Below are positions 1-62,640 of a stretch of DNA of 64,000 bases, piece after piece; the stretch's first letter is position 1, and each line of letters starts with the position of its first letter. The position numbers and the translations under genes are program-made. A model generated the notes under the pieces. The model did no database searches, was not told the DNA's origin, and saw only the letters and a list, made by a program, of their open reading frames with translations. This DNA comes from Dillenia suffruticosa. Lineage: Eukaryota > Streptophyta > Magnoliopsida > Dilleniales > Dilleniaceae. The stretch lies in assembly GCA_033439265.1 (NCBI GenBank), contig JAVTVX010000027.1:8633001-8697000 (forward strand), read 5' to 3'.

Positions 1-745
1 AACTCTTGAAAACAAAAAAACAATAAATAATTCAAGAGTAACAACAAAAATATCATCAAAACCAAAGAAATCAAGAGTAATAGAAAAAACAGTACAACTG
101 AAGAATTCAAGAGCAAAGAGGAAGCATGATCAAAAGATAAGTTGACATAAGGAGAACAAAATGGATCAGAACAAAAGTCAACATGGTCAGCTTAACAGAG
201 TATGAGAAATCGACCTCATGAACCAAAGCTCGAAACTGTAATTTCTAAACGAAGTTCAAGTTGACTTAAACAAGAGATGAGTCAACCAGAGGTAAAAGGA
301 AGTTAACATGCTTGATTTGCTCAACCTATATTCTGCTCTACTCAAAAAAGAATTGCTCAGTATTACTCATGATTGTTCAAGACAGCTTAAAATCAATATT
401 GCCCAGAATCAGATCAGCTACACAGAATTAGACCTACTCAGGATGGCTCAAAAACAAAAGACTTAGGAACTCTAAAGCTAATCGAATACAAGTCAACTTG
501 AGGCAAGGACAAATCGACTTGAAGTAAGTTCAAGTCGACCTGAAGAAGATTTGAAGAAGTCAACCTAACTGATAAGTCAAATACATTCAACTTGAATTGG
601 GAAATCAAGTTGTACATGAAGTCATGCTTGACCTATATAAATTTAGAGTTAAACTAGCTTGACCTATGCAAGACAAAGCAAGTTGACCTGTGAAGATAAA
701 AAGTCAACCTAAAGTAAGGATAAGTCGAATTGATAATCTCAAGTT
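1..745 (+). pseudogene. Decayed copia gag-pol spacer rich in AAGTCGACTT-like motifs (left copy)
   Basis: This is the mirror of 19880-20623, which on the - strand follows directly after the copia gag remnant. In frame with that gag, the translation is low-complexity, rich in N, K, Q and S, and broken by several stops. Motifs of the aagtcgacttg type (also gtcaac and gttgac forms) are dense at about 480-740. I infer that it is the poorly conserved part of copia gag or the gag-pol linker. No protease or integrase motif is visible. Confidence 0.5.
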
Positions 746-3274
746 CTAAAATTGAACTTTTGAAATGTTGATTTTTTTTCATTAATTATTTGTTGTGGAA
801 GTCGATATGTTTAGTTATAATGATTATATTATGTTGTAAAGTAGACGAGAGTAACAAAAATATCTAATTCTATATTTTAACAATTTTCAAACAACAAATA
901 TATATTAGAAAGTACAACAGTGTGGGTGTCGATAGTAAATCAAGTAGATTTAGACAACAAAAATATTCGATGCTATTTAATGAATGTTATACTCATAACA
1001 ACTAATAACAATTTATACAAATGCATATCGCAATCATCAAAATCGATCTTAAATTTGAGACAAAACTTGTGACTATGAAGTTACGGGTTGCAAAGAACAA
1101 GACTCCATTGACAAAATGAATGAATCTCCTCAAATTTTTACTATCTAGAGAACTTCTAAAAGACGATATAGGAGTTGATATTTATCTCTTTAGAATAATA
1201 GTTTACTTATTTTTGGAAAACTCTAACAAGCAAAGAGATGATTTTCCTATAGTATCATGTGACAATCCTATACTAGGGCTCATATCAACTTTGTATTAGA
1301 GACAGTCGTCCTAGAAAGGCCTAACCAAATAGAGAGGTTCATGAGGGATCTTGATATGAACTGTCTCTGTTGGAGGAGCGCCAACAATTTCGCGAGAAGT
1401 TGTTTTAGCAACAGCAAATAATGATGAACTCACAATTAGAAGGGATTCTATAAAAGTTGTAAGGGGTAGCAAAGATAATAAGATGGGAAGTAGCAGTTGC
1501 ACCCTCACATACCAAGGGGAAGAGCAAAGTACGTGACAAGAAAGAGGGATTGTCATCCCTAGGTTTTCTAAACTAGAATTTCCATCATATGATTGTACTA
1601 AAGATCTCCTGATTTGGATCCATAGGTGTAAGTAATTCTTTGAAAATTAGAGAATGCTTGAAAGCATGAAGGTGGGCTAGCAACATTCTATCTTAATGGA
1701 GTAGCGCAGTTGTAATTTTTCTAAAATGAAGCATGATGGGGCAAGCATGAACCAGGAGACATGAACCAGGAGACATGTACCGAGTAGTGCCACTTGAGAT
1801 TCAGCCCATTTCAATTCCATGGCAAGTTGGCCAACTTAAAACAAATACGGATAGTAGAGGAGTATCAAAGGGAGTTTTAGTCCTTACTAGCTTTTATTTC
1901 AAAACTCTCCACAAAATAACAAGTTTGCTTATTCATTGTTGGACTCATGGAGAGTTTGCAACTAGAGGTAGTACTGTAGCAATCCAATAGCTTTGGAACT
2001 ACTATGAATTTGGCCTCCACATATAAGTAACCAAGTTGCGTTGGGGGGAACCATAAAGCAACACCTACTTTGAACGGTCTAAAAACAACCATTAGAGGGA
2101 TAACTACATGAAAGGGAAATTTTGAAGTATTTTGAGAGAACAAACATGCCTTTTTTAAGATGTTAACTAAAATAGAGATAGAGGAACGAAGATGAAGGGG
2201 CTTCATATCAATTGTGATGAAACATTCTTTCGGGAACATAGATACAAGAAGTTGTTTTGGGTAGAATTGACTAAGTCTAAAGAAGATGATGAGGGATGTG
2301 GCTTCTTAAAAGTTTCTTGACAACTTTGAGAAGACTTATCCTAAATTCAAGTTTGAGGACAAGCTCTTTATCCAAGAGAAGAGTAATGATGTGCACAATG
2401 CATTCATACGAAAGAAATATTTTAGGAGAATATTTAGGAATTGATAGACATTCATAAGAAGGAAAGTTTCTATGAAAATACTTAGAATTGATAGTTATTT
2501 TTGTAGAATAGTAGTTTTCTTATTTTTGGAATTATTAATTTTAGGAGTTTGATTTAGTTAAAAACCTATTTTATTGTAGATCCTAATTTTTCTTTATTTA
2601 AATAAGGTACAATGAATAAGAAATAAATCTAATTCTCCTAAAAGAACTGTGGTAGGAAGTTTGTTGGAGAATAGGTTTCCAATATGCAATCATGTGGTCC
2701 CAAAGAGGGAAAAACTCTTGGAAAAGAAGAGAGAATTTTCATATAAAGCATCTTATGACTAGGGCTTATATCATCATCTTGCTATATTCGACATCATTAC
2801 GATCACGATCATAGCAAATCTCATCTTCCTCCTCTTACTCTACTATATAGACTCCCTTGCTTGGGGGAAATCATTGGATTATCACCAAGTTAATTGCACT
2901 TGAACACTTAGTTAATGTTAGCCTAACATAAGGGTTTGTCAACTTAGGTATTTCTATGGCTTCCACCACCTTCTGTTTCCTAGCCAATTTATTCTCTTTT
3001 TGTCGATCACTATGTGTACAAATACCCTAAATTGCTTTACTTCTATCGATAAAAGTTTTATAATTATCCCTACTAAAATTTTTGCAAGATTAATCTGATT
3101 GACTTTACTTCTATCAATATTAAGAATTCTATTAAAATAAGAAATACCTACATTTAGTTTGAATTTGTTGGCCTCCTTTTGACTAAACAAACCTTTTAAA
3201 CTAGCCATTTCTTTTAGGTTTGACAAATAAATTATCTTCTTTGCTCAAGTTCTTCAATATAGACATGGTGTCTA
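746..3274. other. Mosaic retroelement debris with one gypsy gag remnant
   Basis: AT-rich sequence containing the gypsy gag remnant annotated separately. The rest shows only short ORFs without a recognisable domain. A stretch near 2330-2400 reads like a retroelement polyprotein tail on the + strand (DNFEKTYPKFKFEDKLF) but I cannot place it. The mirror copy is at about 17343-19878. The boundaries of the individual insertions cannot be fixed by eye. Confidence 0.4.
1548..1745 (+). pseudogene. Ty3/gypsy gag remnant
   Basis: The + strand frame reads PRFSKLEFPSYD, then DLLIWIHRC, FFEN, RMLESMKVG and KMKHDGA. This matches the N-terminal part of the Retrotrans_gag region of Ty3/gypsy polyproteins, where a KLEFPxFDGxDPLxWIxRCEQFFE-like block is followed by KVxLAxFHLxGxAQ. 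Several in-frame stops and at least one frame change show it is dead. The downstream gag, protease and RT are not recognisable. The mirrored copy lies at about 18874-19071 on the - strand. Confidence 0.55.
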
Positions 3275-5729
3275 CAATGATGTTGATGATAGTTCTACAA
3301 TTGAAATAGCAATGAACAATCTAAAGGGGATGAATAGGTTATTTTTTGCTCTTTTTGATTTTTTTTTTTTGTGGTTTGAATGAAGATTGTGGAGAAAGCA
3401 AAAAAGATCAACACTAAGGATTTATAGTGGTTCCATCTTTCCCGATATACGTCTAATCTCATACTTCATTTAAATTTTCTAATTCATTATTTTCTTCCAA
3501 AATAATACAACCAATTAGTTTGTACAAGAGCTATTCAAACCTTAACCAACTTGCTCACATAAGTGTTGTGGGAACTTACAAGTGTTTCTCTCAAACACTC
3601 CCTAATAACTTTGTACTGGAGTTATCAATCTAAATCGTATTTCACTCAAACACCTTTTAAGGCCAGATTTAAAAAAAAAAATTCTTTTCATTTTTCACAA
3701 AGATTTGGAGGTGATACAAAAATATAAGTATGGATCTTTTAACTTCTTATGTTTTGTTTAAGTCTAAAATGATAATACAACATAAAGAGAATTAAGCTTG
3801 CATAAGATCGTTGTTCAACAATGTTCCTGAGTTGTAAAAGTTATTGAATCTTCTGTTGGAGTGTTGTATTTAAGCTTGTGAAATCAAAAGAGCCATTGGG
3901 CTTCATTTAATGATATAGAAATAACCGTTGTAGGAAGTTGGTTTTATTTAATACTCGAACAGCTTTTCTAAACAATGAACTATTGTTCATATCGAGTTGA
4001 CTTCTTCTTTCTTAAGGTTGACTGAGTTTTGAATTCTATAATATCTATAGCTAGAGTGAGTTGACTTCATATTTGTGTCAAGTTGACTTGTGTTGTGTTC
4101 TGCTTGAATATTTTTGTCTTGTTGCACATGTAAGTCAGCTTGTACTCTCTGCAGGTCAACTTTTGCCTATTAGTACTTTTCATAATGTGGCTCGTGCAAG
4201 TCGCTCTCTTCAGGTTGACTTGGACATCATTTTGCTTAAGTGTTTTTTACTATGTTGTTTTTGCAAGTCGACTTCTTTATACTTCAAGTCAACTTGGGCT
4301 TTGATGGTACTTAAATATCTTTACTTCTTGGCTCATGTACGTCAACTTGGTATTATTTTCTAGTTGGCTTGTGCTTGACACTATTTAAGTATTTTTGCAT
4401 TAAGACTTATGCAAGTTGACTTCTATTTGTAATAGGTCGATTTAGTACAACTTGACTTAATATATTTTTTATTTTGGCTCATGTAAGTTGACTTACTATT
4501 TCAAGTAGTCAACTAGTGGAGTGTCCCGTGAGGTCTACGGTATGTGCAGGTCGACTTATGCTCTCTACAGGTCAACTTGGATATCATTTTGCTTAAGTAT
4601 TTTTCACTGTGTTGTTTTTGCAAGTCGACTTCTCTATACTTCAAGTTGACTTGGGCTCTGATGGTACGTAAGCATCTTTACTTCTGAGCTCATGCAGGTC
4701 GACTTGGTATTGGTTTCTAGTCGATTTGTGCTTAACACTATTTAAGTATTTTTGTATTGAGACTGATGCAAGTCAACTTCTATTTGTAACAAGTCAACTT
4801 AATGCAACTTGACTTAGGATATTTTTCATTTTGGCTCATGTAAGTTGACTTACTAGTTCTTGTAGTCGACTAGTGGAGTGTTCAATGAAGTTTATGATAT
4901 ATGCAGATTGACTTAAACACGGGTTAAGTCAACTTGTTCATAATGGCCTTTGGGTTTTTCAATGTACTGCATATGTATAGGTTGACTTAAGTTTGAGATC
5001 ATTTAAAATGTTAGAAATAGGATAAATTATTCAATAATTATAAAATGTTCTAAGTCCAAGTGTACAAGTCGACTTGTACAATGTGTAAATAAACTTGGTC
5101 TTGAATTTTACTTCAGCTTTAGGTCCTGGCCTGTGACTATCTTTAGGCGGGTCATGTCGTAACATGTGTTCTAACTTGTGGCTGATGTGCTAATTCCTTG
5201 TGACCTATGGCTAATGAGTTAGTTTTGCTTCCACAAATTTTTCTAAGTGTTAAAGTGGCAGGTTGACTCATGATTATACCAGGTCAACTTGACCTTAATA
5301 TAGATTACGTAATTTTGTTTTTGGCCATTTCATATTAAAATTTTTGACCATTAGGAGTTTAAATTTGTGACTTATCTAATGTTTAAATAGGATAGGTTGA
5401 CTTATGCTTTTAGACAGATCGATTTGTTTTCAGACTCACATTTAGTTATTTCATTGCTTTCATGGTCTGTCTTTGGAGTCGACTTGGTTTCATAGGCGAG
5501 TCGACTTAGCTAATCTATTATCTCAATTCAGATGTTGATCTTTACTTAACAAGTAGACTTGTTTTATGAATGCTTCAACTTGTTCAGGTTTGTAATTAAG
5601 TAAATGACTTATATATTCTTAAATTTGATCCAATTCTTTTCAAAATAATCTTTCATCATTCTAACCTATTTTACTATCACTTAACTTAGTTTTGCTAAGT
5701 TTTACTCATCAAAATGCATTTTTCCAACA
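3275..5729 (-). mobile_element. Long copia-type LTR, - orientation, packed with GTCGAC-core motifs
   Basis: On the - strand it begins TGTTGGAAAAATGC at 5729 and runs to a typical copia LTR end near 3300 (accactataaatcc, then cctattcatcccctttaga), matching in style the LTRs at 11277-12991 and 29038-30902. Between about 4020 and 5560 there is a caagtcgacttg-type motif every 40-60 bp, including a perfect one at 5065-5076. The inner boundary is approximate. No partner LTR with the same orientation was found in the window, so it may be a solo LTR or part of a broken element. Confidence 0.6.
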
Positions 5730-6779
5730 ACAATTGTCTACAACCCAAATCATCTCAGGCTCGAAACCAATCATCTTCCATATTTATTTAACATTGATAC
5801 TTTGATTATCCAACTGATTTGCAATTTCTTCAAAACGTCATTTCATACATTCGAATATTAGATCCATCTACTATCCAAAACCCTTAATTCCACCTCTTAA
5901 TCTTGTGACTGAGAGGTATTAGTACTCTGATCTTTGTCATCATTGACTATAACTTGGTTAATTAACATATTGAAATGGGCAAATTCTTCCTGTTGTGATA
6001 CAAATGAACGTAACAAGTAGGCATTAACAAAGGACTAACATTGGACTACGCCTAAAAATAAACAACTTTCAATCTAGCATCTTATAAAGGTTTTGAACAA
6101 ATATTAAGATGTCTAAACACAAGCATAAAAACATTGAGCATAGAAACATCATGTTTCTAAAGAAGAAGTCATGACATTATAGAATTTGGATAGTTTTTGA
6201 AGCAAATGCATTTTTATCTCAAATCAAGACATAACTCAGTAGATTAAGTATAGATTGGGTGCTACACTTAGTCTAAAATCATGTCTAAATACATCATCAA
6301 AGGTTCTGGTGATTGAACATTCAAATTCAAATTATTTACTGATGTAAAAGCAAGTTTCTGGGAACATGAAACTGATTTTTAAGGGAGATTTTGTCACATA
6401 TAACTTCTCCAATAGTCTACCATTTTCAAACTTGAAAATATCAAATTAAAGAAGGATTGTCGATGTCTAGATTCAAACATTTATAGAGGTAAAAATAAGA
6501 AGATATGGTGGAGATTCAACTTTGCAACCTTATATCTTCATGATAGTGACCAGTCTTGCAAGCAGACTTCCTGGAATTTAAAGTGTAATATACTGAGAAT
6601 ATTTAGAATTTTTTACAGAGTCATTTCGATACCTTCGGAGTAAAATATTAGATCTGGAAGTTGGATACTTGAATAGTCTAGTAAAGTGTCTATCATATAG
6701 AATTATTTTGCAGAGATTGTTTTTGTATTTGTTTTGTATTATTTAGCTATTGTATAGTCTTACAAATTTGAGATAGTGT
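5730..6779. other. No recognisable gene; retroelement-like AT-rich sequence
   Basis: Between two LTR-like blocks in the left arm (mirrored at about 13840-14887). Short ORFs only. No conserved retroelement motif was recognised on either strand. Confidence 0.4.
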
Positions 6780-7079
6780 GAGAAACATTTGGTGTGAGGA
6801 TGGACTAGTTGAGTGAGAGTTAAAATTGAGTCTTGTTAGACTAAGTTATCCTTAAGATTGGAGGTGCGGATTGTCAATAAGTGGTTGTACTTAAGTTTGT
6901 AACTCTTGTGGAATTTTTCGCTGGACCCTAACTTTCTGAGCTGGAAGATTAAACGTACACAAGTTCGAATCACTATAAATTGGGTTTAATCTCTCTATTC
7001 CAACTCTTTAATTTTTGCACTTATATTAGTATATTTCATATAGTTTGTCCATAAATTTAATTGAGATTTTAAGTGGAGT
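6780..7079 (+). mobile_element. 3' end of a copia-type LTR at the inner edge of the left arm
   Basis: This stretch has the layout of a Sirevirus-like LTR 3' part: a GT-rich leader, a segment ending gtaactcttgtggaattt, then aatcactataaattgggttt followed by an AT-rich tail. The same aatcactataaatt signature occurs in the LTR at 11277-12991. The arm breakpoint (7079) falls in or just after its tail. The mirror is at 13538-13838. Confidence 0.45.
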
Positions 7080-7086
7080 CACTAAT

Positions 7087-7356
7087 CTTGAGTCACTAAT
7101 CTTGCATTATTCCTAGTAATCGTGCCATGCTCATCAAGTTTGCTCCTAAACACTTATTTAGTTCCTATTACATATTGATCTTTTGGTCTTGGAACTAACT
7201 CTCACACTTCATTTCTCATCAAGTTTGCTCATGAAGTGTGAGAGTTAGTTCCAAGACCAAAAGATCAATATGTAATAGGAACTAAATAGGTGTTTAGGAG
7301 CAAACTTGATGAGCATGGCACGATTACTAGGAATAATGCAAGATTAGTGACTCAAG
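7087..7356. repeat. Hairpin: 125-bp arms, 20-bp loop
   Basis: 7087-7211 is the reverse complement of 7232-7356 with one mismatch seen (acttattta against the complement of taaataggt). The loop is 7212-7231. The right arm is the start of the copia RT remnant, so the left arm is an inverted duplicate of pol coding sequence. It lies 8 bp inside the inner end of the 7-kb left arm and so sits exactly at the breakpoint zone of the larger rearrangement. Confidence 0.95.
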
Positions 7357-8577
7357 AGTATATCCAAGAAGATGGTATTGACTATGATGAAACTTATGCC
7401 TCTGTAGCTTGGATAAAAGCCATTAGAATGTTGCTTACTTTTGCTTATTTCAAGAATTTTAAATTATACCAAATGGATGTCAAGAGTACATTCTTGAATG
7501 GTATAATAAATAAAACAGTCTACATAGAGCAACCACTAGGATTTGCACATCCAAAACACCCGAACCATTTGTATAACTTGTCCAAAACTCTATATGGTCT
7601 AAAAAACCTCCAAGAGTTTGGTATGAAAGATTTAGTAGTTTTTAATTGAAAATGACTTTGAAAAAGGAAATGTTGAGACAACCTTATTTATTGAAAGAAA
7701 TGTCAAAGAAATTCTAATAGTATAAATCTATATGGATGACACAATGTTTGAAGTGACAAATGAGAAATTTTGTCAAAATTTTGCTAAGTCTACATATGTT
7801 AAATTTGAGATTAGTATGATGGGTAAATTGAACTATTTCTTAGGCTTGCAAATCAAATACCAGAGGGAATATTCATAAATCAATCCAAATTCACTAAGGA
7901 ATCGATCAAGAAATTTGGATTTAGTGAGACCAATGGGTATGCCACTCCTATGACCATGTTAGTTAAACTAGATAAAGATGAGAAAGGAAAAAAAGTATGC
8001 CAAAAGTTATATAAAAGTATAATTGGTTCCTTATTATACTTGATTGCATCTAAATCAAATATTTTATATAATATTTGCTTGTGTGCTGTATTTCGATCTA
8101 ATTCTAAAAAGTCACATTTAGTAGTAGTTAAAAGAATTTTAAAATATTTAAAAGATACTTGTAATCTAGAATTATGGTTTGATAGGAACTCATCATTTGA
8201 CTTGCATGGATACCCAAATGCAAACTTTGCAGGTTGTAAATTAGATAGAAAGAGTACAAGTGGTACTTGTCTGTAGGATAATGTTGTGCTCAAATCTTAT
8301 AGATCAAATATCAGCTTGAGGATTATGGACTAAATTTAGAAAGTATATCAATTAAAATAGATAATACTAATACTATAAACTTAACCAAAAATCCAGTTTA
8401 TCTTTTTATAACTAAACACATTGAGGTTAAAAACTATTTTATTAGAGGTCAGGTACTTAAAAATAATATAATTCTAGAATATATTGAAACTAAAAAGCAA
8501 ATTATAGATATTTTTACTAAACCATTAGATAAAGAGAGATTTTACAATTTAAGAAAAGAATTGGGTATGATAGAATA
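7233..8577 (+). pseudogene. Ty1/copia RT and RNase H remnant
   Basis: The frame from 7233 reads ELVPRPKDQYVIGTK, then VFRSKLDEHGTITRNNARLV, FKLYQMDVKSTFLNG and LYNLSKTLYGLK: the N-terminal half of a copia reverse transcriptase. A frame change near 7630 follows, then the catalytic box as IYMDDTMF (about 7726-7749; the family has YVDD), then LNYFLGLQIKY. The connection and RNase H part reads SLLYLIASKSNI, FAGCKLDRKSTSGTC and TKHIEVKNYFIRG, and ends DIFTKPLDKERFYNLRKEL. Stops and frameshifts are scattered throughout, so it is inactive. Integrase and gag are not upstream; the sequence instead abuts the hairpin and the inverted-repeat arm. Confidence 0.9.
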
Positions 8578-8659: not shown

Positions 8660-9245
8660 TTGATACAAAGTTTGTCAACTCATTAAGGAAATGAGTTGAC
8701 TTATAAAAAAGACAAGTCAACGTACAGGTTAAATTTTAGGAAAATCTAAATGTGTAAGTCGACTTATAAGATATGTAAGTCAACCTGATGAGTTAAGGGT
8801 TAACTCCTGTATGGGATAAGTCGACCACGTTTGTTGAAATTTATAAAAGACAAGTCAACTTATATGATATACAAATTGACCTGTCAACATTAGGACTCAT
8901 AACTGAATTCTGAAAAATTTAGCAAGTTGACCTATTGATACAACAAGTTGACTTATGAATTCCATGGCTCAGAAATTTTTCTAACAAATAATCGAGTTGA
9001 CTTATAGGAAACATAAGTTGACCTATGGAAAATGCTTGCATAATACAAGTCGACTTATTCAAAGTATAAGTTGACTTGCAAAATCCAAGACAAAGAAAAT
9101 GTTTCTAAAAATACAATCAAGTCAACTTGGCTCTTCAGAAAGTTGACTTAGTTAATTTCAGAATAAGGTTTTACTCTTACAAGTCAACCTGCAATCAATG
9201 GGAGTCGACCTTCTCAAACAGATAAGTTGACCTGTGCCTCCTCAA
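8660..9245 (+). repeat. GTCGAC-core motif array downstream of copia pol
   Basis: About a dozen copies of aagtcgactt-type 10-12-mers occur 30-60 bp apart (for example 8756-8765), in GTCGAC, GTTGAC and GTCAAC forms, with unrelated sequence between them. It lies between the RNase H end and the extra ORF, so the motif is not confined to LTRs. Confidence 0.8.
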
Positions 9246-10989: not shown

Positions 10990-11276
10990 CCATTTTCTTG
11001 ATGACAGAAGGGGGGAGAATGGTTGTCTATGCAGTTGTATATGCATAGGAAGAATGGGCATTGGATTAAGGGGGAGAGAGCTATGAATATGAATTGATGT
11101 GCATATGCTTTAGAGAAATGCACTACATTATATGTATTTTAGATATAAGGCCATTTACATAAGCTTTTGAAAGATTAGAAGAACATAGTATTGGTTAAGG
11201 GAGAATGTTTTCAAATTTTTAAACAATTTTGATCAATTTTTAAATAAGATTTTGTCATCATCAAAAAGGAAAAGAT
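10990..11276 (+). promoter_or_regulatory. Multiple polypurine-tract-like boxes before the 3' LTR
   Basis: gatgacagaaggggggaga at about 10999-11017, aagggggagaga near 11069, taagggagaatg near 11196, and finally gtcatcatcaaaaaggaaaa directly before the LTR. Repeated PPT-like boxes of the gatgacaaaaggggga type upstream of the 3' LTR are a known Sirevirus hallmark. The last one, adjoining the LTR, would be the functional PPT. Confidence 0.6.
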
Positions 11277-12991
11277 TGTTAAGTAAAAAAAAAAATTTGA
11301 TGATTATTAGGGGTAATTACAATCGATTTGAGTTAATTAACTAAAGTTTTAATAAAATAAGAAAATTGTTCAAATTGAATTCTGCATAGACAAGTCAACC
11401 TACACCAGAAACAAATCAACCTGTACATTCAAGACACTTAGTTCGAACGTAAGGTGTCGACCATTTATTGCCTTTGTCGCCTATTGAATGATCAAGTCAA
11501 CCTCACCATAACTCCAAGACAACTTGGAATTCAAAATTTTGAAATTTGGCTATGTTTAGAACACTTCAACATGACCTGAGTTGAATATGAGACGATATGA
11601 AAAATATGAGTTTCAGAACCCTAACTCTACATACAACCAAGTCGACTTGCCCAAGTGACAAGTCTATTTAAGCCTTAAATTGTAAGATCATAAGTCGACC
11701 TACACTTAGAGTAAGTCAACTTGTTAAATATAAATCTTAGAAACCAATTCTATAATATAAATAAGTCAACTTACTAGGAATACAAGTCAACTTGAGTTAT
11801 GCTCAGATAGAAAATGAGTTGACCCAAATATAAACCATATCGACCTAACTTCAAACATTAGCCCAAGACTAGTTAACCTAACTTTTACGTAGACAAGTCA
11901 ACCCAATATAATGATAAATCAACCTGAATATTAGTGTTGAAAATTTATCTAAGTATAGGAAATTACGAGTTGACCTGAGAAAACCAATGAGTCAACCTAT
12001 TAATTCATAGTCACATTAGTTTACAATCTAAATAAGTCAACCTAATCATTTTTCAAGTAGACATGAACCAATGATGAACTAATACTAAGTCGACTTGATA
12101 AATCAATAATTGACCCAGAGGTAAATAAGCATACAAGTCGACTCAATTATAATCCAAGTCGACTTGAGAAGTCAGGATAAGAGAAACTAATGTTTGTAAC
12201 TTTAGTTAGTTGACCCAAGTCTAGAATAGTTCAACTTGAGACTAGAATATGTCAACTCAACAAATATGTAAGTTGAGCAACATCTCTTACAAATCGACCC
12301 ATGAGTAATACAAGCAAACCTACCCTTCACATAGAAACATATGTAAGTTGACAAGTGCATCCATTGAGTCAACCTAAGCAATTTGAAAATTACAAAAGAA
12401 AGTCTACCTCACTGTTTGTCAAATTGACTTGAGCATTTCAAAATTCAAAAGTAAGTCGAGTTTCAACAGCTTGATTGCATATGAGGAACGTCTATATGCT
12501 CAGAAAAGCTATTACGAATTAAATGAAAAGCTCACCAACCTCGCCAAGCTCTGTGACACCTTTGACAACATTCAAGCATACTTTAACAGCACAAAAGCAT
12601 CCTATATTTCTTTTGTATTCTAAGTGTCCTTCACAAACACATTAGAAGAAAAAGCTTCAAGTTGTGTTTTTATTGTTTGTAACAAGTGAGATTTGAACTT
12701 AGAATTTACTTGCTTCGGGAAAGGGAAAGTAAGAGTGTTTGAGAAAAAACTTGTAAAGTTGGCTAGCACTTTGTAAAGTTAATGTGAAAACTAGGATTCA
12801 AAAATCCAGATAAAGTTTGGGAGTTAATTTATACCAAGAAGATAAATCACTATAAATTGTGTATCTATCATCTCTTACCTTTTTCTTTTCAATTTTTTTG
12901 TTCACATATTAATTTTATTTTAAAATCTTAGAAAAGATCAAAATTATTAAATAATCTATTCACCCTCTCTAAATTATCATATTTAGTGTCA
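11277..12991 (+). mobile_element. Copia 3' LTR (+ orientation)
   Basis: It starts TGTTAAGT directly after the PPT-like tract and ends ...ttatcatatttagtgtca. It is related to the LTR at 29038-30902 (opposite strand) from end to end, including aagttgtgtttttattg, the caccatataaatt-type box (here atcactataaattgtg) and the terminal attatca-atttagtgtca. About 11380-12430 is filled with GTCGAC-core motifs, including a perfect CAAGTCGACTTG at 12155-12166. By eye the two LTRs differ far more than the two 7-kb arms do, so the element is old. No target duplication could be confirmed. Confidence 0.8.
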
Positions 12992-14887: not shown

Positions 14888-17343
14888 TGTTGGAAAAATG
14901 CATTTTGATGAGTAAAACTTAGCAAAACTAAGTTAAGTGATAGTAAAATAGGTTAGAATGATGAAAGATTATTTTGAAAAGAATTGGATCAAATTTAAGA
15001 ATATATAAGTCATTTACTTAATTACAAACCTGAACAAGTTGAAGCATTCATAAAACAAGTCTACTTGTTAAGTAAAGATCAACATTTGAATTGAGATAAT
15101 AGATTAGCTAAGTCGACTCGCCTATGAAACCAAGTCGACTCCAAAGACAGACCATGAAAGCAATGAAATGACTAAATGTGAGTCTGAAAACAAATCGATC
15201 TGTCTAAAAGCATAAGTCAACCTGTCCTATTTAAACATTAGATAAGTCACAAATTTAAACTCCTAATGGTCAAAAATTTTAATATGAAATGGCCAAAAAC
15301 AAAATTACGTAATCTATATTAAGGTCAAGTTGACCTGGTATAATCATGAGTCAACCTGCCACTTTAACACTTAGAAAAATTTGTGGAAGCAAAACTAACT
15401 CATTAGCCATAGGTCACAAGGAATTAGCACATCAGCCACAAGTTAGAACACATGTTACGACATGACCCGCCTAAAGATAGTCACAGGCCAGGACCTAAAG
15501 CTGAAGTAAAATTCAAGACCAAGTTTATTTACACATTGTACAAGTCGACTTGTACACTTGGACTTAGAACATTTTATAATTATTGAATAATTTTTCCTAT
15601 TTCTAACATTTTAAATGATCTCAAACTTAAGTCAACCTATACATATGCAGTACATTGAAAAACCCAAAGGCCATTATGAACAAGTTGACTTAACCCGTGT
15701 TTAAGTCAATCTGCATATATCATAAACTTTATTGAACACTCCGCTAGTCGACTACAAGAACTAGTAAGTCAACTTACATGAGCCAAAATGAAAAATATCC
15801 TAAGTCAAGTTGCACTAAGTTGACTTGTTACAAATAGAAGTTGACTTGCATCAGTCTCAATACAAAAATACTTAAATAGTGTTAAGCACAAATCGACTAG
15901 AAACCAATACCAAGTCGACCTGCATGAGCTCAGAAGTAAAGATGCTTAAGTACCATCAGAGCCCAAGTCAACTTGAAGTATAGAGAAGTCGACTTGCAAA
16001 AACAACACAGTGAAAAATACTTAAGCAAAATGATATCCAAGTTGACCTGTAGAGAGCATAAGTCGACCTGCACATACCGTAGACCTCACGGGACACTCCA
16101 CTAGTTGACTACTTGAAATAGTAAGTCAACTTACATGAGCCAAAATAAAAAATATATTAAGTCAAGTTGTACTAAATCGACCTATTACAAATAGAAGTCA
16201 ACTTGCATAAGTCTTAATGCAAAAATACTTAAATAGTGTCAAGCACAAGCCAACTAGAAAATAATACCAAGTTGACGTACATGAGCCAAGAAGTAAAGAT
16301 ATTTAAGTACCATCAAAGCCCAAGTTGACTTGAAGTATAAAGAAGTCGACTTGCAAAAACAACATAGTAAAAAACACTTAAGCAAAATGATGTCCAAGTC
16401 AACCTGAAGAGAGCGACTTGCACGAGCCACATTATGAAAAGTACTAATAGGCAAAAGTTGACCTGCAGAGAGTACAAGCTGACTTACATGTGCAACAAGA
16501 CAAAAATATTCAAGCAGCACACAACACAAGTCAACTTGACACAAATATGAAGTCAACTCACTCTAGCTATAGATATTATAGAATTCAAAACTCAGTCAAC
16601 CTTAAGAAAGAAGAAGTCAACTCGATATGAACAATAGTTCATTGTTTAGAAAAGCTGTTCGAGTATTAAATAAAACCAACTTCCTACAACGGTTATTTCT
16701 ATATCATTAAATGAAGCCCAATGGCTCTTTTGATTTCACAAGCTTAAATACAACACTCCAACAGAAGATTCAACAACTTTTACAACTCAGGAACATTGTT
16801 GAACAACGATCTTATGCAAGCTTAATTCTCTTTATGTTGTATTATCATTTTAGACTTAAACAAAACATAAGAAGTTAAAAGATCCATACTTATATTTTTG
16901 TATCACCTCCAAATCTTTGTGAAAAATGAAAAGAATTTTTTTTTTTAAATCTGGCCTTAAAAGGTGTTTGAGTGAAATACGATTTAGATTGATAACTCCA
17001 GTACAAAGTTATTAGGGAGTGTTTGAGAGAAACACTTGTAAGTTCCCACAACACTTATGTGAGCAAGTTGGTTAAGGTTTGAATAGCTCTTGTACAAACT
17101 AATTGGTTGTATTATTTTGGAAGAAAATAATGAATTAGAAAATTTAAATGAAGTATGAGATTAGACGTATATCGGGAAAGATGGAACCACTATAAATCCT
17201 TAGTGTTGATCTTTTTTGCTTTCTCCACAATCTTCATTCAAACCACAAAAAAAAAAAAAATCAAAAAGAGCAAAAAATAACCTATTCATCCCCTTTAGAT
17301 TGTTCATTGCTATTTCAATTGTAGAACTATCATCAACATCATT
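14888..17343 (+). mobile_element. Long copia-type LTR (mirror copy), + orientation
   Basis: Mirror of the LTR-like sequence at 3275-5729. It starts TGTTGGAAAAATGC at 14888 and ends near tattcatcccctttagattg. It carries the same motif array, with a perfect CAAGTCGACTTG at 15541-15552. Confidence 0.6.
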
Positions 17344-19071: not shown

Positions 19072-20623
19072 CCTCTTTCTTGTCACGTACTTTGCTCTTC
19101 CCCTTGGTATGTGAGGGTGCAACTGCTACTTCCCATCTTATTATCTTTGCTACCCCTTACAACTTTTATAGAATCCCTTCTAATTGTGAGTTCATCATTA
19201 TTTGCTGTTGCTAAAACAACTTCTCGCGAAATTGTTGGCGCTCCTCCAACAGAGACAGTTCATATCAAGATCCCTCATGAACCTCTCTATTTGGTTAGGC
19301 GTTTTTAGGACGATTGTCTCTAATACAAAGTTGATATGAGCCCTAGTATAGGATTGTCACATGATACTATAGGAAAATCATCTCTTTGCTTGTTAGAGTT
19401 TTCCAAAAATAAGTAAACTATTATTCTAAAGAGATAAATATCAACTCCTATATCGTCTTTTAGAAGTTCTCTAGATAGTTTAAATTGGAGGAGATTCATT
19501 CATTTTGTCAATGGAGTCTTGGTTCTCTGCAACCCGTAACTTCATAGTCACAAGTTTTGTCTCAAATTTAAGATCGATTTTGATGATTGCGATATGCATT
19601 TGTATAAATTGTTATTAGTTGTTATGAGTATAACATTCATTAAATAGCATCGAATATTTTTGTTGTCTAAATCTACTTGATTTACTATCGACACCCACAC
19701 TGTTGTACTTTCTAATATATATTTGTTGTTTGAAAATTGTCAAAATATAGAATTAGATATTTTTGTTACTCTCGTCTACTTTACAACATAATATAATCAT
19801 TATAACTAAACATATCGACTTCCACAACAAATAATTAATGAAAAAAAATCAACATTTCAAAAGTTCAATTTTAGAACTTGAGATTATCAGTTCGACTTAT
19901 CCTTACTTTAGGTTGACTTTTTATCTTCACAGGTCAACTTGCTTTGTCTTGCATAGGTCAAGCTAGTTTAACTCTAAATTTATATAGGTCAAGCATGATT
20001 TCATGTACAACTTGATTTCCCAATTCAGGTTGAATGTATTTGACTTATCAGTTAGGTTGACTTCTTCAGATCTTCTTCAGGTCGACTTGAACTTACTTCA
20101 AGTCGATTTGCCCTTGCCTCAAGTTGACTTGTATTCGATTAGCTTTAGAGTTCCTCAAGTCTTTTGTTTTTGAGCCATCCTGAGTAGGTCTAATTCTGTG
20201 TAGCTGATCTGATTCTGGGCAATATTGATTTTAAGCTGTCTTGAACAATCATGAGTAATACTGAGCAATTCTTTTTTGAGTAGAGCAGGTCTAATATAGG
20301 TTGAGCAAATCAAGCATGTTAACTTCCTTTTACCTCTGGTTGACTCATCTTTTGTTTAAGTCAACTTGAACTTCGTTTAGAAATTACAGTTTCGAGCTTT
20401 GGTTCATGAGGTCGATTTCTCATACTCTGTTAAGCTGACCATGTTGACTTTTGTTCTGATCCATTTTGTTCTCCTTATGTCAACTTATCTTTTGATCATG
20501 CTTCCTCTTTGCTCTTGAATTCTTCAGTTGTACTGCTTTTCTGTTACTCTTGATTTCTTTGGTTTTGATGATATTTTTGTTGTTACTCTTGAATTATTTA
20601 TTGTTTTTTTGTTTTCAAGAGTT

Positions 20624-22107
20624 TTGAACTTAGGGAAATTCATGTTTTGTGTTTAGGTCGACTAGTGTACTTGTTCTATGAAGTGTATCTTTGAGCACGT
20701 CAACTCATGCATACAATAAGTCGACCGTGCACTATGTAACTTAAGCATTTTCATGTAACTTGACTTATTTTTTCCCTAGATCAACTTGAGCTCAAGGTCT
20801 CTCAAGCTTATAAGTGTTCAAAATTTGTGTAGGTCGACTTAAAATTGAGTTTACTTAAAATTTTCTAAGTCAAGCATTTTCAAGAAAATTTCTTCTTTTG
20901 AGTTCCTCATGCAAGTCAATTTTCTCTTGCTTTAACATGTTATTTTATGTTCTAAGTTTTTCATTTTCAAACATCAATTTGTTCTTATCTTTCTCTAGTT
21001 TGGTCATTTCCTTCTTTCATGCACCATTTTTCTTGCTCATATTTTTCAAGTCTATTATGGATTCTAATAATGTATCATGCAGTTCATTCAAAGAAAGTTC
21101 ATTGTTGAAATATGAATCAGAAAAGTAAGAAGTTGAAGAGATTACCTCATCACTAGGATCGTCCTCTAATGTCATGAAGCACAAATTTTCTTGCCCCTGT
21201 TCATGTCCTTCTCACTTGAGCTGTTATCACTCCGTGCTGTTGAGCCTTTTTCTTTTCCCCTTTCTCATTCTTCTCTGCCTTCTTTAACATAGGACAATCA
21301 ACCTTGACATAACCAAACTTCTTGTACTCATAGCACCTTATTTCATCCTCGCTTTCTAGTTTCTTAAATTCTTTCCTTCCTCTATTTTTCTTCAACATCA
21401 TAAATTTCTTGAATTTTCTGGTTAAAAGTGCCATGTCTTCATCTTCATCATTACTTAAACTGCTTTCATCACTTTCCGCCTTCAAGGCTATAGATTTTTC
21501 TCTTTCTTCATTGCTATTTCTATTGGAGTTCATATTCATTTCATGGATTGTTAAAGAACCCACCAATTGATCCATTATAAGAGTTTCCGAGTTCTTTGAT
21601 TCTTTAATCACAGTAACCTTGGCTTCCTATGAATTAGGAATGCATCGGAATACCTTATCAACCATAACTTCTTGACTTATTCCTTTGCCCAACAATCTTA
21701 ACTCATTTATGATGGTATTGAATCTTGTTATTATGTCTCTCACTATTTCACCATCCTTTATCTTAAAAGCTTTATTTTGAGCATTCTTATCTTATTCTTC
21801 CTTACTTGATTTGTTCCATCATAGGTAGCCTCCAACATTTCCCATATCTCCTTTGACATAATGCATAAAGGGATTCGATTATATTCATCTAGATTTAATG
21901 CTAAATGAGTCAAATTGACTGCCTTGCAAATTGATCTATATGATCTCTAATATTCCAGAGTCAGATTCTTCATTTTCATCGAAACTTTTACTACATCGAT
22001 TTCTTCGGTTGGAAATTCAATTCCTTCTTTTATAATCTCCCAACCTGTCTCATCTTGAGCAATGATGAAGTTTCTTATCCTTTGCTTCCAATAGCTATAA
22101 TTATTGT
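20624..22107 (-). pseudogene. Ty1/copia gag remnant, main part
   Basis: On the - strand from 22107 the frame reads NNYSYWKQRIRNFIIAQDE, WEIIKEGIEFP and later EKSIALKAESDES, ALLTRKFKKFMMLKKNRGRK. A zinc-knuckle relic follows as CYEYKKFGYVKVDCP (about 21295-21340), in which the second Cys and the His of CX2CX4HX4C are lost. Further on come ENLCFMTLEDDPSDEVI and an acidic, coiled-coil-rich linker (SLNELHDTLLESIIDLKN, MTKLEKDKNKLMFENEKLR). These match the UBN2-type gag of Sirevirus-like copia elements. The first 25 codons are displaced to 28912-28986 by a gypsy insertion. Stops and frameshifts make it non-functional. Confidence 0.8.
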
Positions 22108-22812
22108 TGTTAGAGATGGATTTAGCTCCACTGATGAAGAGTTTGCTGACTCGAATGGGTTGATTAATCATCTGTTGATCATGGAGAATAAGACTTGCAA
22201 AAAACTACCAGAGGTTGCGCTGGCTAGGAAGACTCCGATACTCAAGTCAAAAAGTGGTTTTTGAAAAGAGAGAAACAGACTGAAAGAAAGAGCTTTGTGT
22301 CATGCGTATGGTGTAAGTTCAAAGAGAAGAGAGGACTTACAATGAGATATATATAGTCTACCTACATGAGTTTCATATGCTTTCGGGGTATTAAAACCCT
22401 AATTTTCAAGTAGAGAAGTCCCGAGATTATGAGGATCGCGGTGAGAGTATCTCAAAGATTTGAAATACTATTATATGAAGAGGGCCAAATCATAAAAGAT
22501 TCCTATACTTATCAGCAGCAATCAAAGGTTTCTTTTCCTTTTACGGGAGGTTAACTCCGTGCTTTGAGGGAGGACGTATGCTATCCCTAGCTAAGTATGG
22601 TCATGGAACACCTAGCAGATTTAGGGGCCAATCAAGCAGTTACCAAGAAGAAGCGGGTCAACATATACCAAGAGAGTGGGATGTGGCTACCCGTATAGGG
22701 GATGAATCCCGTATGGATGACAAGCTTTCGGTCGTGTTGTGTTCATTGGGCCATGAATTCAAAAAAAAAAAGCTTTAAGTCCCATGGTAATGGGCCTTTA
22801 GATTATGTTCCA
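22108..22812 (-). repeat. Element 1 3' LTR
   Basis: Related along its whole length to 28226-28911 (shared blocks include agtctacctacatgagttt, aaatactattat, cttatcagcagca and ggttaactcc). On the - strand it starts TGGAACATAATC and ends ...ctctaaca. It is preceded on the - strand by a purine-rich tract (aggagtcagaggcatgta). Confidence 0.85.
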
Positions 22813-25489: not shown

Positions 25490-25910
25490 GGGGACGCGCC
25501 CTTGGTTTATAATTCATTCGTTCAAGAGAGAGTATGGGCTGTACCTACCCAATAGGAAAATGCGTCCTTTATTGCCAGTACGTTCATTCGATAAAGAGGG
25601 TCATACCTACCTGGCAAGGAGACGTGTTCCTTGTTGTCAATACATTTGTTTGATAGAGAGGATCGTACTTGCCTGGTTAGGAAACTCGTCTGTTATTGTC
25701 GGTATATTCGTTCGATGCAGAGGGCCATACATACTCGACAGCGATATGCGTCCCTTATTGTCTGTACATTCATTCAATAGAGAGGGCTGTATCTGTCTTG
25801 TAGGGAAACTCGTCCCTTATTGTTGGTATGTTCATTCGATAAAGAGGGCTTTACCTGCCCGGTAGGTAGACTCATCCTTTGTTGTAGTACGTTTATTCAG
25901 TGTGATCAAT
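25490..25910. repeat. Minisatellite of about 61-62 bp in element 1
   Basis: About seven imperfect units. The recurring block (t/g)cgtcccttattgt...gtacattcattcgatagagag starts near 25562, 25623, 25686, 25748, 25809 and 25871, which gives the 61-62 bp period. It sits between the protease and the antisense ORF, exactly where pol is missing. Confidence 0.85.
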
Positions 25911-28986: not shown

Positions 28987-29037
28987 TTTTGACCTTTACT
29001 TCTAACATTGTTGAACCCTTCTAGAAGACATGCTTGT

Positions 29038-30902
29038 TGACACTAAATGTGATAATCTAGAAGGGGTAATAGGTTATCTAATAATTTTATCCTCCCCTAA
29101 GATTTTAAAATAAAATTAAATTATGAAAAGAAAATTTGAAGAGAAAAATGTAAGAGACAACGGGAACACAATTTATAGTGGTTTTATCTTCTTGGATCCA
29201 CTCTCAGGTTTCACTTGAATTTTTTGATTCACTATTGTAAAATAGTTTACACACTAGTTTCACAGGTGTCAACCAACTTTACAAGTGTTTTCTCAAACAT
29301 TCTTACTTCCCCTTTCCTAGAGTAAGTAAATCCTAAGTTCAAATTTCACTCGTTACAACTCAAACCCTAGATCAAGAATTTCAATTCTCTGATCTCATAC
29401 AATAGATTGAAAGTAAAAATAAAAACACAAGTTGAAGCCTTTTCTTCTAATATGTTCGAGAAGGACACTTAGAATGCAAAAGAAACAAAGTATGCTTTTG
29501 AGCTCTTGAGATATGCTTGAATATTGTCAAGGTGTTTCTTCTACATTCTTCCATCCTTTTTATACTTAGAGAAGATAAATTAGCCTTTGAAGTTCATTGA
29601 ATGCATCGCAGAGTTTGGTGAGATTGGTGAGCTTTTCATTTAACTTGTAACAACTTTTCTGAGTATATAGACAAAACTCACATGCAGTCTACCTGTTGAA
29701 ACTCTGAGTTGACTTACTTTTGAATTTTGAAATGCTCAAGTAGATTTGACAAATGGTAAGATCGACTTTCTTCTATAATTTTCAAACTGCTTAAGTCGAC
29801 TCAATGGGTGCACGAGTGAACTTACATATGTTTGTATGTGAGGGGTAGGTCCACTTGTATTGCTCATGGGACAATTTGTAAGAGATGTAGGTCGACTTAC
29901 ACATTTGTTGAGTCAATATATCCTAGTCTCAAGTTGACCTATTCTTGGTTTGGGTCAACTCACTAAAGTTATAGACATTAGTTTTTATAACCCTGACTTC
30001 TCAAGTCAACTTGGCTTATAACTAAGTCAACTTATATACTTATTTACCTCTAGGTCAGGTCAACTTATTGTTTTATCATGTCAACTTAGTATTAGTTCAT
30101 CGTAGGTTTATTTCGACTTAAATAATGATTAGGTTGACTTAATTAGATTGTAGAGTAAATTTCTGTAATCCTGAATTAACAGGTCGACTAGTTGGTTTTC
30201 TCATATCGACTCGTGATTTCCTATACTTAAATTTTCAACACCAATGTTCAGGTCGACTCATCATTATATTAGATCAACTTCTCTACATAGAAGTTAGGTT
30301 GACTGGTCTTAGGCTTATGTTTGAAGTAAGGTCAACTTGGTTTATATTTGAGTCGACACAATTTACATTTGGGTCAACTCATTTTCTGCTAAGCATAACT
30401 CAGGTCAACTTGTATTCCAAGTGAGTTGACTTACTTATATTACAGACTTGGTTCTAAGACTTATATTTGACAACTCATGATGAGTGTGGGTCAATGTATG
30501 ATCTTACAATCTTAGGCTCACTTGGACAGGTCGACTTGGTTGTGTGTAGAGTTAGGGTTCTGAGACTTGTATTTCTCAAGTCGACTCATATTCAACTCAA
30601 GTCGACTTGATGTGTTTTATACTTAGCCAAATTTCAAAATTTTGAATTCCAAATCGACTTGGAGTTATGGTGAGATTGACTTAATCATTCAATAGGTTGA
30701 CAGAGGCAATAAGTGGATCAACACCTTAGGTTCAAACTAAGTGTCTTGAATGTGCAGATTGACTTGTTTCTAGTGCAAGTCGACTTACTTATGCAGAATT
30801 CAATTTTAACAATTCTTCTATTTTATTAGAACTTCATTTAATTAACTCAAAATAATTTTAATTACCTCTAATCATCATTCAAAACATTTTCTTCATTTGT
30901 CA
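29038..30902 (-). mobile_element. Copia 5' LTR (- orientation)
   Basis: On the - strand it starts TGACAAATGAAG at 30902 and ends atttagtgtca at 29038. It is homologous throughout to the + strand LTR at 11277-12991. About 29690-30790 carries the densest run of GTCGAC-core motifs in this part, with a perfect CAAGTCGACTTG at 30598-30609. The copia gag follows on the - strand, so this is the 5' LTR of the right-hand copy. Confidence 0.8.
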
Positions 30903-36559: not shown

Positions 36560-36922
36560 CACTCTCTCAGCGCAATGCCTCTAAACTTTCTCTTGGCATA
36601 ACACCAATGAGCACTCTCTCGGTACAATACCTCTAAGCTCTCTTTTGGTGCAATGCTAATAGTCACTCTCTCTGTGCAATGCCTTTAAACTGTCTCTTAG
36701 TGCAACACCATCAAGCACTCTCTCGACGCAATGCCTTTAAGCTCTCTCTTAGCGCAATGCCAATGAGCACTCTCTCAACACAATGCCGTTAACTCTCTCT
36801 TGGCACAACATCAACGAGCACTTTCTCAATGTTAGGTCTCTAAACTGTCTCTTGGAGTAATGCCAGCGAACACTCTCTCATCCCAACACCTCTAAACTCT
36901 ATCTTGATGTAACTCCAACAAA
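36560..36922. repeat. 52-bp minisatellite in element 2
   Basis: Seven units. The block cactctctc starts at 36560, 36612, 36664, 36716, 36768, 36819 (one base short) and 36871, followed each time by a variant of gcgcaatgcctctaag and ctctctcttggcgcaa. It takes the place of pol, as the unrelated 61-62-bp array does in element 1. Confidence 0.9.
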
Positions 36923-52786: not shown

Positions 52787-52959
52787 CCTGATCGCCTTGC
52801 TTTTGGTATTGCTCACTTTCAACCTCTCACATCTCAGTCATGGTGCGGCCCTGGTGCTGATGCTGACGCAAACCACCATTCTCCCCTTTTCATTTTCAAA
52901 CATACCTCTCCGTCCAAAATATCCCATTCCCACCAAAATGCCTTGTTTAATACTAGGAG

Positions 52960-58390: not shown

Positions 58391-58499
58391 GAATCCAAGA
58401 AATTACCATACAGTCCAAAAAACAAAATCCACATTCATATTTAAATTAATTATTCTCATAAATTTTATAAAATACAGAAATTTTAAATGGTTCTTTAGA

Positions 58500-60646: not shown

Positions 60647-60654
60647 GGCTTGAA

Positions 60655-61560
60655 CATTCATTAGATTTTTCTAAGTGTAGATAATACAAGTCAGCTTGTG
60701 AACTAGAGTGAGTCGACTTGAGCTTAAGCACTTGTGCCGTGAGTCACACTTATGTCCAATATTCTTAAATATTTCTAAGTGTCAAAGCTGTAGATTGACT
60801 TAGAATATATATAGGTTGATTTATACTTAAGCTTACTTGAGATTTTCCCAAGTTAATTTTATGTTTTATTTTCACAAATAATGCTAAGTATTAACATGGC
60901 AAGTCGACTTGTTGTTCTATTTAGTCGATTTGAAGTTATGCAATTTCACTGATTGTCTAAGTCTCACCAATGCAAGTTGACCTATGGAAGGCATAGGTCG
61001 ACTTGTCTGTTTGTTTACTTATTTTCTTTCCTTAAGTCAACTCATGTTTTTAGTAGGCTGACTTGTTCTGTCTTAGTCTAATTTTCAATCATAAAATTTT
61101 CAAATTTTTGGTTGTCATATTTAAAATTTTGACTATTAGAAGTTCAAGATTTTTAATTCTCAAATTGCTTTGTTGTTCAAGTCGAGTTATGCTATATGTA
61201 GGTTGACTTGTTCTTTAAACTCAACTTTAGTCTTTTTCACAAAATATTTATCTAGTTGACTTGACTAACCCACTATCTAAATTAAGAAGATTTATGCTTC
61301 TCGATGAATTGACTTATTCCTACTAGAGTCGATTTGAGTAACTTTCTATCTAAATTTAAATGTTGATCTTTACTTAGCAAGACAACTTGTTATTTTTGTG
61401 AGTCAACTTGTTCAAGTCTGCAACTTAGACAATGACTTTACACATTCTTAGACTTGTTTTAATTTCTTCCAAGTTAATCTTTTATAAATTTAATTATTTT
61501 TACTTCAGTATTGAGTATATTAGCTATTGATGATGATAAAAGAATTTGAATTAAAAAAAC
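60655..61560 (-). mobile_element. Fragment of the motif-rich LTR family
   Basis: Collinear with the part of 3275-5729 that starts near 5100: shared blocks include ttctaagtgt, atttaaaattttgac-attag-agttt, ttgatctttacttagcaag, tgagtcaacttgttcaagtc and acaatgactt...cattctta. Carries caagtcgacttg-type motifs such as 60900-60911. Ends are ragged. Confidence 0.65.
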
Positions 61561-61599
61561 ATAAGAAAAATAGAAAGAATAGAATTTGAAAATTCACAG

Positions 61600-62640
61600 A
61601 CCTACAGAAGTATGTCAAGCTGACTATATCTAAATGCATATATGTCCACCTATTTTAAGTCTCATGTCGATCAATTGAGCAAAATTTGAATCGATTAGAA
61701 AACATGTTGCCCTATCCAAATCTCATGTCGCCATGAATGAAACCAAAACACAAATTTTTCTAAGTGACACTATGTCGACATACCTAAAAAAATGTCAACC
61801 CAAATAAGACTTAATGCTTTCTTGTTGTCTTAACCAAAAACCTATCGCAAAACCTACAAATTGGTCAACATATTCAATAAAATTGATCGACATGTGACTC
61901 ATGTCAAATTGATCACTTTAAATGTCGACATGTCCATGTGCAAGTCTACCAATTTTAGTCCACAGGTCACCAATTTAAAACATGTCAACCTAATTACTTT
62001 TACATGTCAACCTATCCTCTTCATGTCAACCTATTTGAGTTCTCAAGTCTACCAATTTAAATCCTGAGTCGACTCATTAATCCATATATTGACAAGAAGC
62101 TTAATAAAAAAATAAAGAAGGTCGACACACCTGACAACTTGTCGACCTGTTTCATTTTTCCTTAAGAATCACACGACGATCTCTATCCAAAATATGTCGA
62201 CCCACCTTCATATGTCATTCAATACAAATATATCATGTCCACCAATTTTATCTTTAAACAGGATAATGTCGAGTTGAAAACTTAATGTGTTGACAAAGTC
62301 TTTTAGTTCTTAACATAAGCGATGTCGATGCCCCAATATAATTATGTCAACACACTAAACAATGTTGACCAATATCAGTACACTATGTCCACCGATTAAT
62401 ATTGGAACAGAACCATGTCGACTTAAAATTTTAAATATTTCGACATCACCTTTAATAGAAAAGCATAAGAAGTTCAATACAATATTGTTCAATTCGATTG
62501 GGAATATAAAATTGGTCGATATGCTCATATAAATTTGTCGACAAGTCAAACTTGTCGACCTGATATATTAATATATCGATCTGACCAGTAAATTTGCAAC
62601 ACAAAAAATTTGAATCCTAGACGATGTGCTCTTTAAACTT
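61600..62640. repeat. TATGTCGACATA-type motif array
   Basis: More than twenty words of the atgtcgac / atgtcaac / ttgtcgac type at about 30-50-bp spacing, with perfect palindromes at 61771-61782 and 61922-61931. The linkers are AT-rich and unrelated to the arrays with aagtcgactt flanks. Probably non-coding LTR or leader of another retroelement, since gypsy pol follows. Confidence 0.75.

Follow-up and report, generated by a model that had tools for sequence, protein, structure and literature searches.

A 64,000-nucleotide stretch of the genome of Dillenia suffruticosa (contig JAVTVX010000027.1, positions 8,633,001 to 8,697,000; hereafter the window) carries dense arrays of short palindromes built on a GTCGAC core. 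The arrays probably represent the cis-regulatory palindromes of old, broken, Sirevirus-like copia long terminal repeat (LTR) retrotransposons, boxes that were placed in phase with the DNA helix and later decayed by CpG deamination. The helical phasing is the strongest feature of the arrays and was missed in the preliminary description of the window, which was made from the sequence alone. The palindrome array as such is of an already known kind. Searches of open-licence papers brought up no account of its AAGTCGACTT version, of a CpG decay into W-box forms or, above all, of the helical register; none of the 20 listed matches to AAGTCGACTT (of 80) concerned transposons by title.

Six non-mirrored arrays, 5,301 bp in total, were used for the motif census: A1 (480..740, 7 sites, several of them at 21-bp steps), A2 (4020..5560, minus strand, 27 sites), A3 (8660..9245, plus strand, 15 sites), A4 (11380-12430, plus strand, 13 sites), A5 (29690-30790, minus strand, 17 sites) and A6 (60680..61440, minus strand, 13 sites including one with a TA centre). 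Expected core counts were derived from positions 30901-60600 of the window. GTCGAC cores were found 31 times against 1.07 expected, and GTTGAC and GTCAAC together 71 times against 2.9 expected, which confirms the earlier claim that the palindrome occurs in arrays together with these two forms, both classes lying far above chance. The double product GTTAAC was found twice, and the commonest other one-base core variants were ATCGAC/GTCGAT (10) and then GTAGAC/GTCTAC (5). To say that the arrays consist of these motifs, as had been done, is too strong. The palindrome is 10-12 bases long, its flanks vary (AAGT, AGGT, GAGT) and full 12-mers are a minority. The centres of the 102 sites with at least 7 of the 8 flank bases AAGT..ACTT were CA in 35, CG in 28, TG in 28, TA in one and other in 10. 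The complete CAAGTCGACTTG stands at 5065, 11638, 12155, 15541, 30598 and 60900, so that the four perfect palindromes listed earlier (5065, 12155, 15541, 30598) are all present and those at 11638 and 60900 are additional. On the plus strand of the whole window, CAAGTTGACTTG occurs four times, CAAGTCAACTTG seven times and CAAGTTAACTTG not at all. The motif extends well beyond the window (C27:8633001-8697000 in the 596-Mb genome): with the pattern read backwards as control, CAAGTYRACTTG was counted at 2,108 sites against 120, and the intact CAAGTCGACTTG at 714 against 22. In 22 further loci, with the twin loci L035 and L037 both counted, the centres were CG 161, TG 222, CA 179, TA 61 and other 73.

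The spacing of the boxes follows the helix. Of the 97 spacings between successive cores in the window, 28 measure exactly 21 bp, for which random placement gave a mean of 1.35 and a maximum of 6 in 2,000 trials; with the tandem copy and A5 removed, 17 of 67 spacings are 21 bp. Other spacings cluster at 42, 53, 63 and 72-74 bp. Across 21 genome loci (L037 left out), the 978 box pairs at distances of 23-140 bp had a vector strength (R) of 0.575 at a period of 10.5 bp, and of 0.16 at 11.5 bp and 0.14 at 9.5 bp. The phasing was significant in each of the 21 loci (P <=0.007, 300 shuffles each), and between 21 and 315 bp each of the 29 in-phase bins exceeded the out-of-phase bin after it, most narrowly at 31.5 bp (4 vs 3) and 252 bp (16 vs 15). 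Control words reached an R of at most 0.11 (7 pentamers) and at most 0.19 (83 tetramers), the tetramers having been added because only seven pentamers had enough pairs. The most regular pairs were those with both centres intact (R 0.76, n=71), with decayed pairs at 0.55 (n=428).

Two points tell against the phasing. The counts over 21 loci pool homologous copies that are not independent, so the behaviour of single arrays matters; and within the window A4 (P 0.07) and A6 (P 0.06) are weak when taken singly and A1 is not phased. The single arrays A2, A3 and A5 are significant. R reached 0.67 in A3, 0.65 in L061 and 0.61 in L062 (all P <=0.0015), and 0.56 in L063 (P 0.08). Scanned for pairs of intact boxes at distances of 12-42 bp, the genome gave 94 cases, and none for the backward pattern. 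Among the first 50 of these 94 pairs listed, 33 lie 20-22 bp apart (4.8 by chance), and only three spacers were seen twice by eye. Unlike most of those 50 pairs, the three intact palindromes of one locus, G000:C15:8992136-8992197, follow one another every 26 bp and are out of phase with the helix. In IMG/VR, 18 contigs fit the 21-bp pair pattern, TA centres accounting for many of the fits; these contigs contain 0-13 cores apiece, none has a dense array, and they were set aside as chance or unrelated matches.

A regular spacing could also be left if a unit of 21 bp or 73-74 bp had expanded in tandem and its spacers had then diverged, with no selected geometry. This account is unlikely, although some features fit it: beside the 21-22-bp pairs and repeats of 52-53 bp, distances of 73-74 and 147 bp recur, one 21-bp run has identical spacers (C17:12161158-12161209), and A2 contains a tandem duplication of 357 bp. 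The spacers themselves speak against it, as they are mostly unrelated. Information content at the nine central spacer positions is 0.15-0.55 bits over 17 non-redundant 21-bp pairs, compared with 0.8-1.7 bits at the unfixed AA/TT flank positions (the GT..AC core was fixed by the search pattern and hence proves nothing in this profile). The 53-bp spacers are unrelated as well, with a median identity of 0.36, except for three pairs of known homologues. Odd half-multiples (53, 74, 95) occur, and R is 0.27 at 21 bp vs 0.575 at 10.5 bp. Locus L062 is phased, yet BLAST aligned it neither with the window (E 1e-10) nor with the 22 LTR loci (E 1e-20). A register of 10.5 bp kept across spacers that are mostly unrelated points to an array of protein on one face of the DNA. 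Boxes on one helix face most likely suit a dimeric protein that binds cooperatively, the factor being hypothetical. In the available text of PMC2829016, on the palindromes of Sireviruses, helical phasing is not described, and the words 'helical' and 'spacing' appear in the reference list only.

Complementary boxes could alternatively act mainly as RNA, by folding, yielding small RNAs and attracting methylation, as has been proposed for the palindromes of maize Sireviruses. Transcripts of the arrays do fold better than shuffled sequences (z -6.9 for A3 with 100 shuffles; -5.2 for A4, -5.0 for A2 and -6.2 for A5 with 20 each), and the small-RNA work in maize has been summarised (PMC10760457). 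The maize LTRs likewise have a palindrome-rich regulatory region with strong RNA folding (Bousios et al., 2016, via PMC10760457, PMC5311732); their palindromes differ from those of Dillenia in motif and host. Pairing between RNA strands needs no helical period of 10.5 bp in the DNA, and RNA as the main mode of action is possible but doubtful. A role as RNA could operate beside a role in DNA binding, and would explain methylation.

In the preliminary description, GTTGAC and GTCAAC were interpreted as the two products of C-to-T change at the central CpG on either strand, arising by methylation and decay of a silent site. This interpretation is supported in part: the mutation pattern at CpG agrees with it, some of the TG and CA variants are probably original, and proxies of age gave null results. 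That the intact site was silent was an assumption; the palindromes of Sireviruses have been proposed to be promoter-proximal regulatory boxes (PMC2829016). If both central bases changed independently, about 21 TA cores would be expected beside the 31 CG and 71 TG or CA cores, and 2 were seen. The sparing of the second base once the first has changed is expected for CpG-dependent mutation, and selection for TTGAC would look alike. Aligned homologues separate decay from selection.

At 30 aligned homologous motif sites (21 in A4/A5 and 9 in the 357-bp tandem of A2), both copies were CG in 2, one was CG and the other decayed in 16, and both were decayed in 12, which fits independent decay from CG (P 0.27). 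Among the doubly decayed pairs, opposite products (TG vs CA) were as common as identical ones, at 6 each; this argues against inherited W-boxes, which would give almost no opposite pairs. Between A4 and A5, CG was the least conserved dinucleotide, kept at 3 of 35 places vs 64 of 142 for GG, GC and CC combined (P 3e-5). CpGs decayed alike inside and outside the motif, with 1 of 13 and 2 of 18 conserved (P 1.0). The twins L035 and L037, 2.9% diverged, kept CG at 14 of 24 places and the other 15 dinucleotides at 85-94%, and their two ungapped motif sites with differing centres were TG vs CG and CA vs CG. Partners 20-22 bp apart were both CG in 15 cases, CG at one site in 51 and at neither in 67, where independence predicts 12.3, 56.3 and 64.3. 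Perfection of the flanks showed no link to the CG state (11/31 vs 17/60, P 0.48). As a mutation pattern, decay by CpG deamination is well supported.

That the TG and CA forms instead served the living element as W-boxes, maintained by selection and not produced by decay, is improbable. An alignment of 57 motif columns was made from 21 of 23 loci, including A2 of the window and leaving out L038 (span 5.2 kb) and L037, the twin of L035. By eye, 45 of the 57 columns hold CG, TG and CA together, and 714 intact palindromes persist genome-wide; the equal numbers of opposite and identical products and the equally fast decay of CpGs outside the motif likewise speak against selection. Several results weigh against decay from CG as the whole explanation. 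Nine of the 57 columns, counted by eye, are without CG, some columns are nearly fixed (column 2767: CA 14, CG 1, TA 1; column 1619: TG 10, CA 1, TA 1), and the ratio of TG to CA differs between columns (P 1.5e-4). From these two observations, some W-box forms were probably original. The 357-bp tandem kept CG at 1 of 10 places, but CC at 0 of 2. The arms of an inverted repeat in the window, about 0.6% diverged, are unchanged at the 39 motif sites tallied and differ by 2 CpG transitions outside them, a comparison of little power since the arms are too similar. The CG fraction did not fall with age, neither against terminal branch length (rho +0.22, P 0.33, 22 rows) nor against the observed/expected ratio (o/e) of non-motif CpG (rho 0.00, P 0.99, 27 rows). 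The comparison of CG share with age that had been suggested thus gave null results by both proxies, with no young copies among the candidates scored. Taken together, decay from CG is, on the sequence comparisons, apparently the main but not the sole source of the TG and CA forms.

Two genome DNA searches, in which 40 of 848 and 40 of 166 candidates were scored, found no young transposed copies, the relatives being 64-86% identical to the query. No partner LTR of high identity was found in the flanks of 10 LTR loci (20 stretches). L035 and L037 are 95-97% alike and are taken for a recent duplication, because their match extends past the LTR on both sides. The CG fraction correlates with the TA fraction (rho -0.42, P 0.03), a relation to be expected in part from the way the two are computed, each being a fraction of a common total.

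The core of the W-box, the site of the WRKY factors that regulate stress responses in plants, is TTGACY. The preliminary description held that the change on either strand creates this core; at the level of sequence this is borne out, as TTGACY is present in 64 of the 71 decayed cores. Its density in the arrays (83 in 5,301 bp, or 15.7/kb) is about eleven times that in the background (1.45/kb). A copia LTR with W-boxes is also known in EVADE/ATCOPIA93, which is activated by WRKY at these boxes (PMC12786077), a case that favours W-boxes maintained by a living element. There, use of the boxes depends on weakened DNA methylation and they serve an activatable element (PMC12786077); most of the TTGACY in Dillenia appear to have arisen during decay of the element. 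The creation of factor sites by CpG decay has been described in human repeats (PMC7913837) and primate enhancers (PMC6060477), methylated CpG in repeats becoming TpG and so a factor motif (Zemojtel et al., 2011, as described in PMC7913837, PMC6060477). Unlike in that case, the Dillenia sequences suggest a plant element in which one palindrome would become a W-box-like site by decay of either strand, giving ready-made phased arrays.

Several features connect the arrays to Sireviruses. A Ty1/copia reverse transcriptase piece (RVT_2, E 1.6e-25) lies at 7290..7646 on the plus strand, upstream of A3, and plant copia proteins are among the named relatives in the 120 matches listed. Between this piece and A3 are open pieces (7827-8273, 8303-8575) that are pol-like by eye and have no Pfam match. 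The earlier equation of arrays with LTRs applies to A4 and A5, which lie inside LTRs, and to A2, which is LTR-like; A3 lies in the linker or 3' region directly after the pol-like coding and in no demonstrated LTR, and A1 has no LTR assignment. LTR A4 (11277..12991, plus strand) was delimited by its TG, a break in similarity to A5, and CA, and LTR A5 (29037..30883, minus strand) is 80% identical to it. The region around A2 (3303..5730, minus strand) is 68-76% identical to pieces of the LTR-like region of L020. In Sireviruses, several copies of the octamer AGGGGGAG stand near the 3'LTR, the last one 10 bp before it (PMC2829016). One exact copy is found near A4 (11069..11076, plus strand, about 0.2 kb before the LTR start), with variants at about 11006 and 11198 and a degenerate terminal one (AGGAAAAG); the exact octamer also occurs on the minus strand at 38544, in an unrelated place, so the copy at 11069 may be a chance match. 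The junction of internal domain and 3'LTR (11251..11276, plus strand, by eye) comprises the polypurine stretch AGGAAAAG, an inexact octamer, and AT/TG. Around it, also by eye, is an inverted repeat of ATCATCAAA before the junction and TTTGATGAT inside LTR A4, a layout as in Sireviruses (PMC2829016). The junction string was copied from the window itself, so that its exact match at 11251 is no test and the layout alone counts.

A further feature of Sireviruses is a C-rich signal for integrase, some 21 bp ahead of the LTR end (PMC2829016). With a search pattern composed partly from the window, such a signal was found with 2 mismatches at 12956-12974 in LTR A4 (plus strand, about 15 bp before the LTR end) and at 3337-3319 by A2 (minus strand, mirrored at 17282). 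A weaker stretch at 29073 (minus strand) occupies the homologous place in LTR A5 with 5 mismatches, the same number as at two unrelated places (58934, 59132). The published LTR end is CA/ATTGG, and the primer binding site (PBS) is TATCAGAGC (PMC2829016). CA/ATTG occurs about 18 bp beyond the signal at 3337, without the PBS 9-mer. The 13 boxes of A4 and the 17 of A5 lie in the LTR upstream of a TATA-like site, at least 8 being the number set for the repeated motif (RM) boxes of Sireviruses. TATA-like sites of LTR A4 are at 12493 and 12851 (plus strand), and in the alignment TATA[AT]A occurs at column 3930 in 11 of 22 rows and at column 4448 in 11, with the last box at column 3801.

Like the boxes of Sireviruses (Bousios et al., 2010, PMC2829016), those of Dillenia are palindromes, are found many times over both in LTRs and in the linker that follows pol, and precede a TATA box. 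Among the published examples, the Vitis RM CGGTCGACCG shares the GTCGAC core, and the Tnd-1 RM ACAATCGATTGT shares TCGA and, like the Dillenia motif, is without CGG-CCG (PMC2829016, Table 3). Unlike the published boxes, those of Dillenia have the core AAGTCGACTT and are more numerous, with as many as 41 sites scored in the 3.1 kb of locus L027, and they begin about 115 bp into LTR A4 vs 200-400 bp (PMC2829016). Against the affiliation, the PBS TATCAGAGC was not found at any LTR end in the window, where the copies are old and no complete element was seen, and the arrays are not CpG islands as published RM boxes are (CpG o/e 0.44-0.51, background 0.54). A low CpG o/e is expected if the CpGs have decayed, and such decay may be the cause. 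The CGG-CCG core of the RM boxes is also lacking, a core that Tnd-1 shows not to be universal (PMC2829016). Because of the missing PBS and these two RM features, the elements are called Sirevirus-like; judged by their sequence, they are very probably Sirevirus itself.

The rest of the window adds the following context. A 7-kb inverted repeat (1-7079 and 20623-13538, 99.3% identical, with a centre of 6.4 kb) is either a palindrome of recent origin or the result of two haplotypes being joined in the assembly. The arrays listed in the preliminary description are real, but through this repeat they are not all independent: 15060..16600 (plus strand) mirrors A2, and in the array named at 20000..20860 the part 20000-20623 mirrors 1-624, the remainder lying beyond the repeat. 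The mirror of A1 is at about 19884-20144. At the edge of the repeat, about 280 bp (7083-7360) form an inverted repeat of their own (93.6%) and overlap the start of the copia pol piece. The tandem duplication within A2 spans 4203-4915 (85%), and segment 5498-5672 of A2 is 73% alike over 176 bp to 61326-61500, which overlaps A6. Two copies at 22107-22794 and 28225-28900 are 77% alike; the second adjoins LTR A5, and the first shares positions with a minus-strand match to copia gag (21950-22204) that is weak and falls below the cut-off. Minisatellites lie at 25536-25899 and 36560-36906, with units of 62 bp and 104 bp. A gene for a MutY-type DNA glycosylase is predicted at 45820-52837 on the minus strand, with NUDIX_4 above and HhH-GPD below the cut-off; a protein of Dillenia turbinata matches its pieces at 93% and 97% identity, the next plants among the matches listed being far lower, which places the genome close to that species.

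A course of events can be proposed. In the living element the box would mostly have been CAAGTCGACTTG, with half-sites AAGT, AGGT or GAGT, in tens of copies upstream of a TATA-like site. Boxes set at whole helical turns would have turned their dyads to the same side of the DNA, most likely for cooperative binding on one face by a dimeric host factor. After insertion, copies may have been silenced and methylated. Deamination of either strand would then have removed the central CpG, one site and one copy at a time, and left GTTGAC or GTCAAC, of which almost all contain TTGACY; a minority of sites would probably have been TG or CA already in the source element. It is a speculative and rather improbable extension that the phased platform of palindromes was turned by silencing-driven deamination into phased arrays of W-box half-sites with its geometry kept, and that dead LTRs might so provide ready-made WRKY enhancers near host genes. 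The function of the Sirevirus palindromes was left open by those who described them (PMC2829016), and the 10.5-bp register makes this question directly testable. The decay route shows how methylation could convert the control boxes of a transposon, on either strand, into a different motif of host type.

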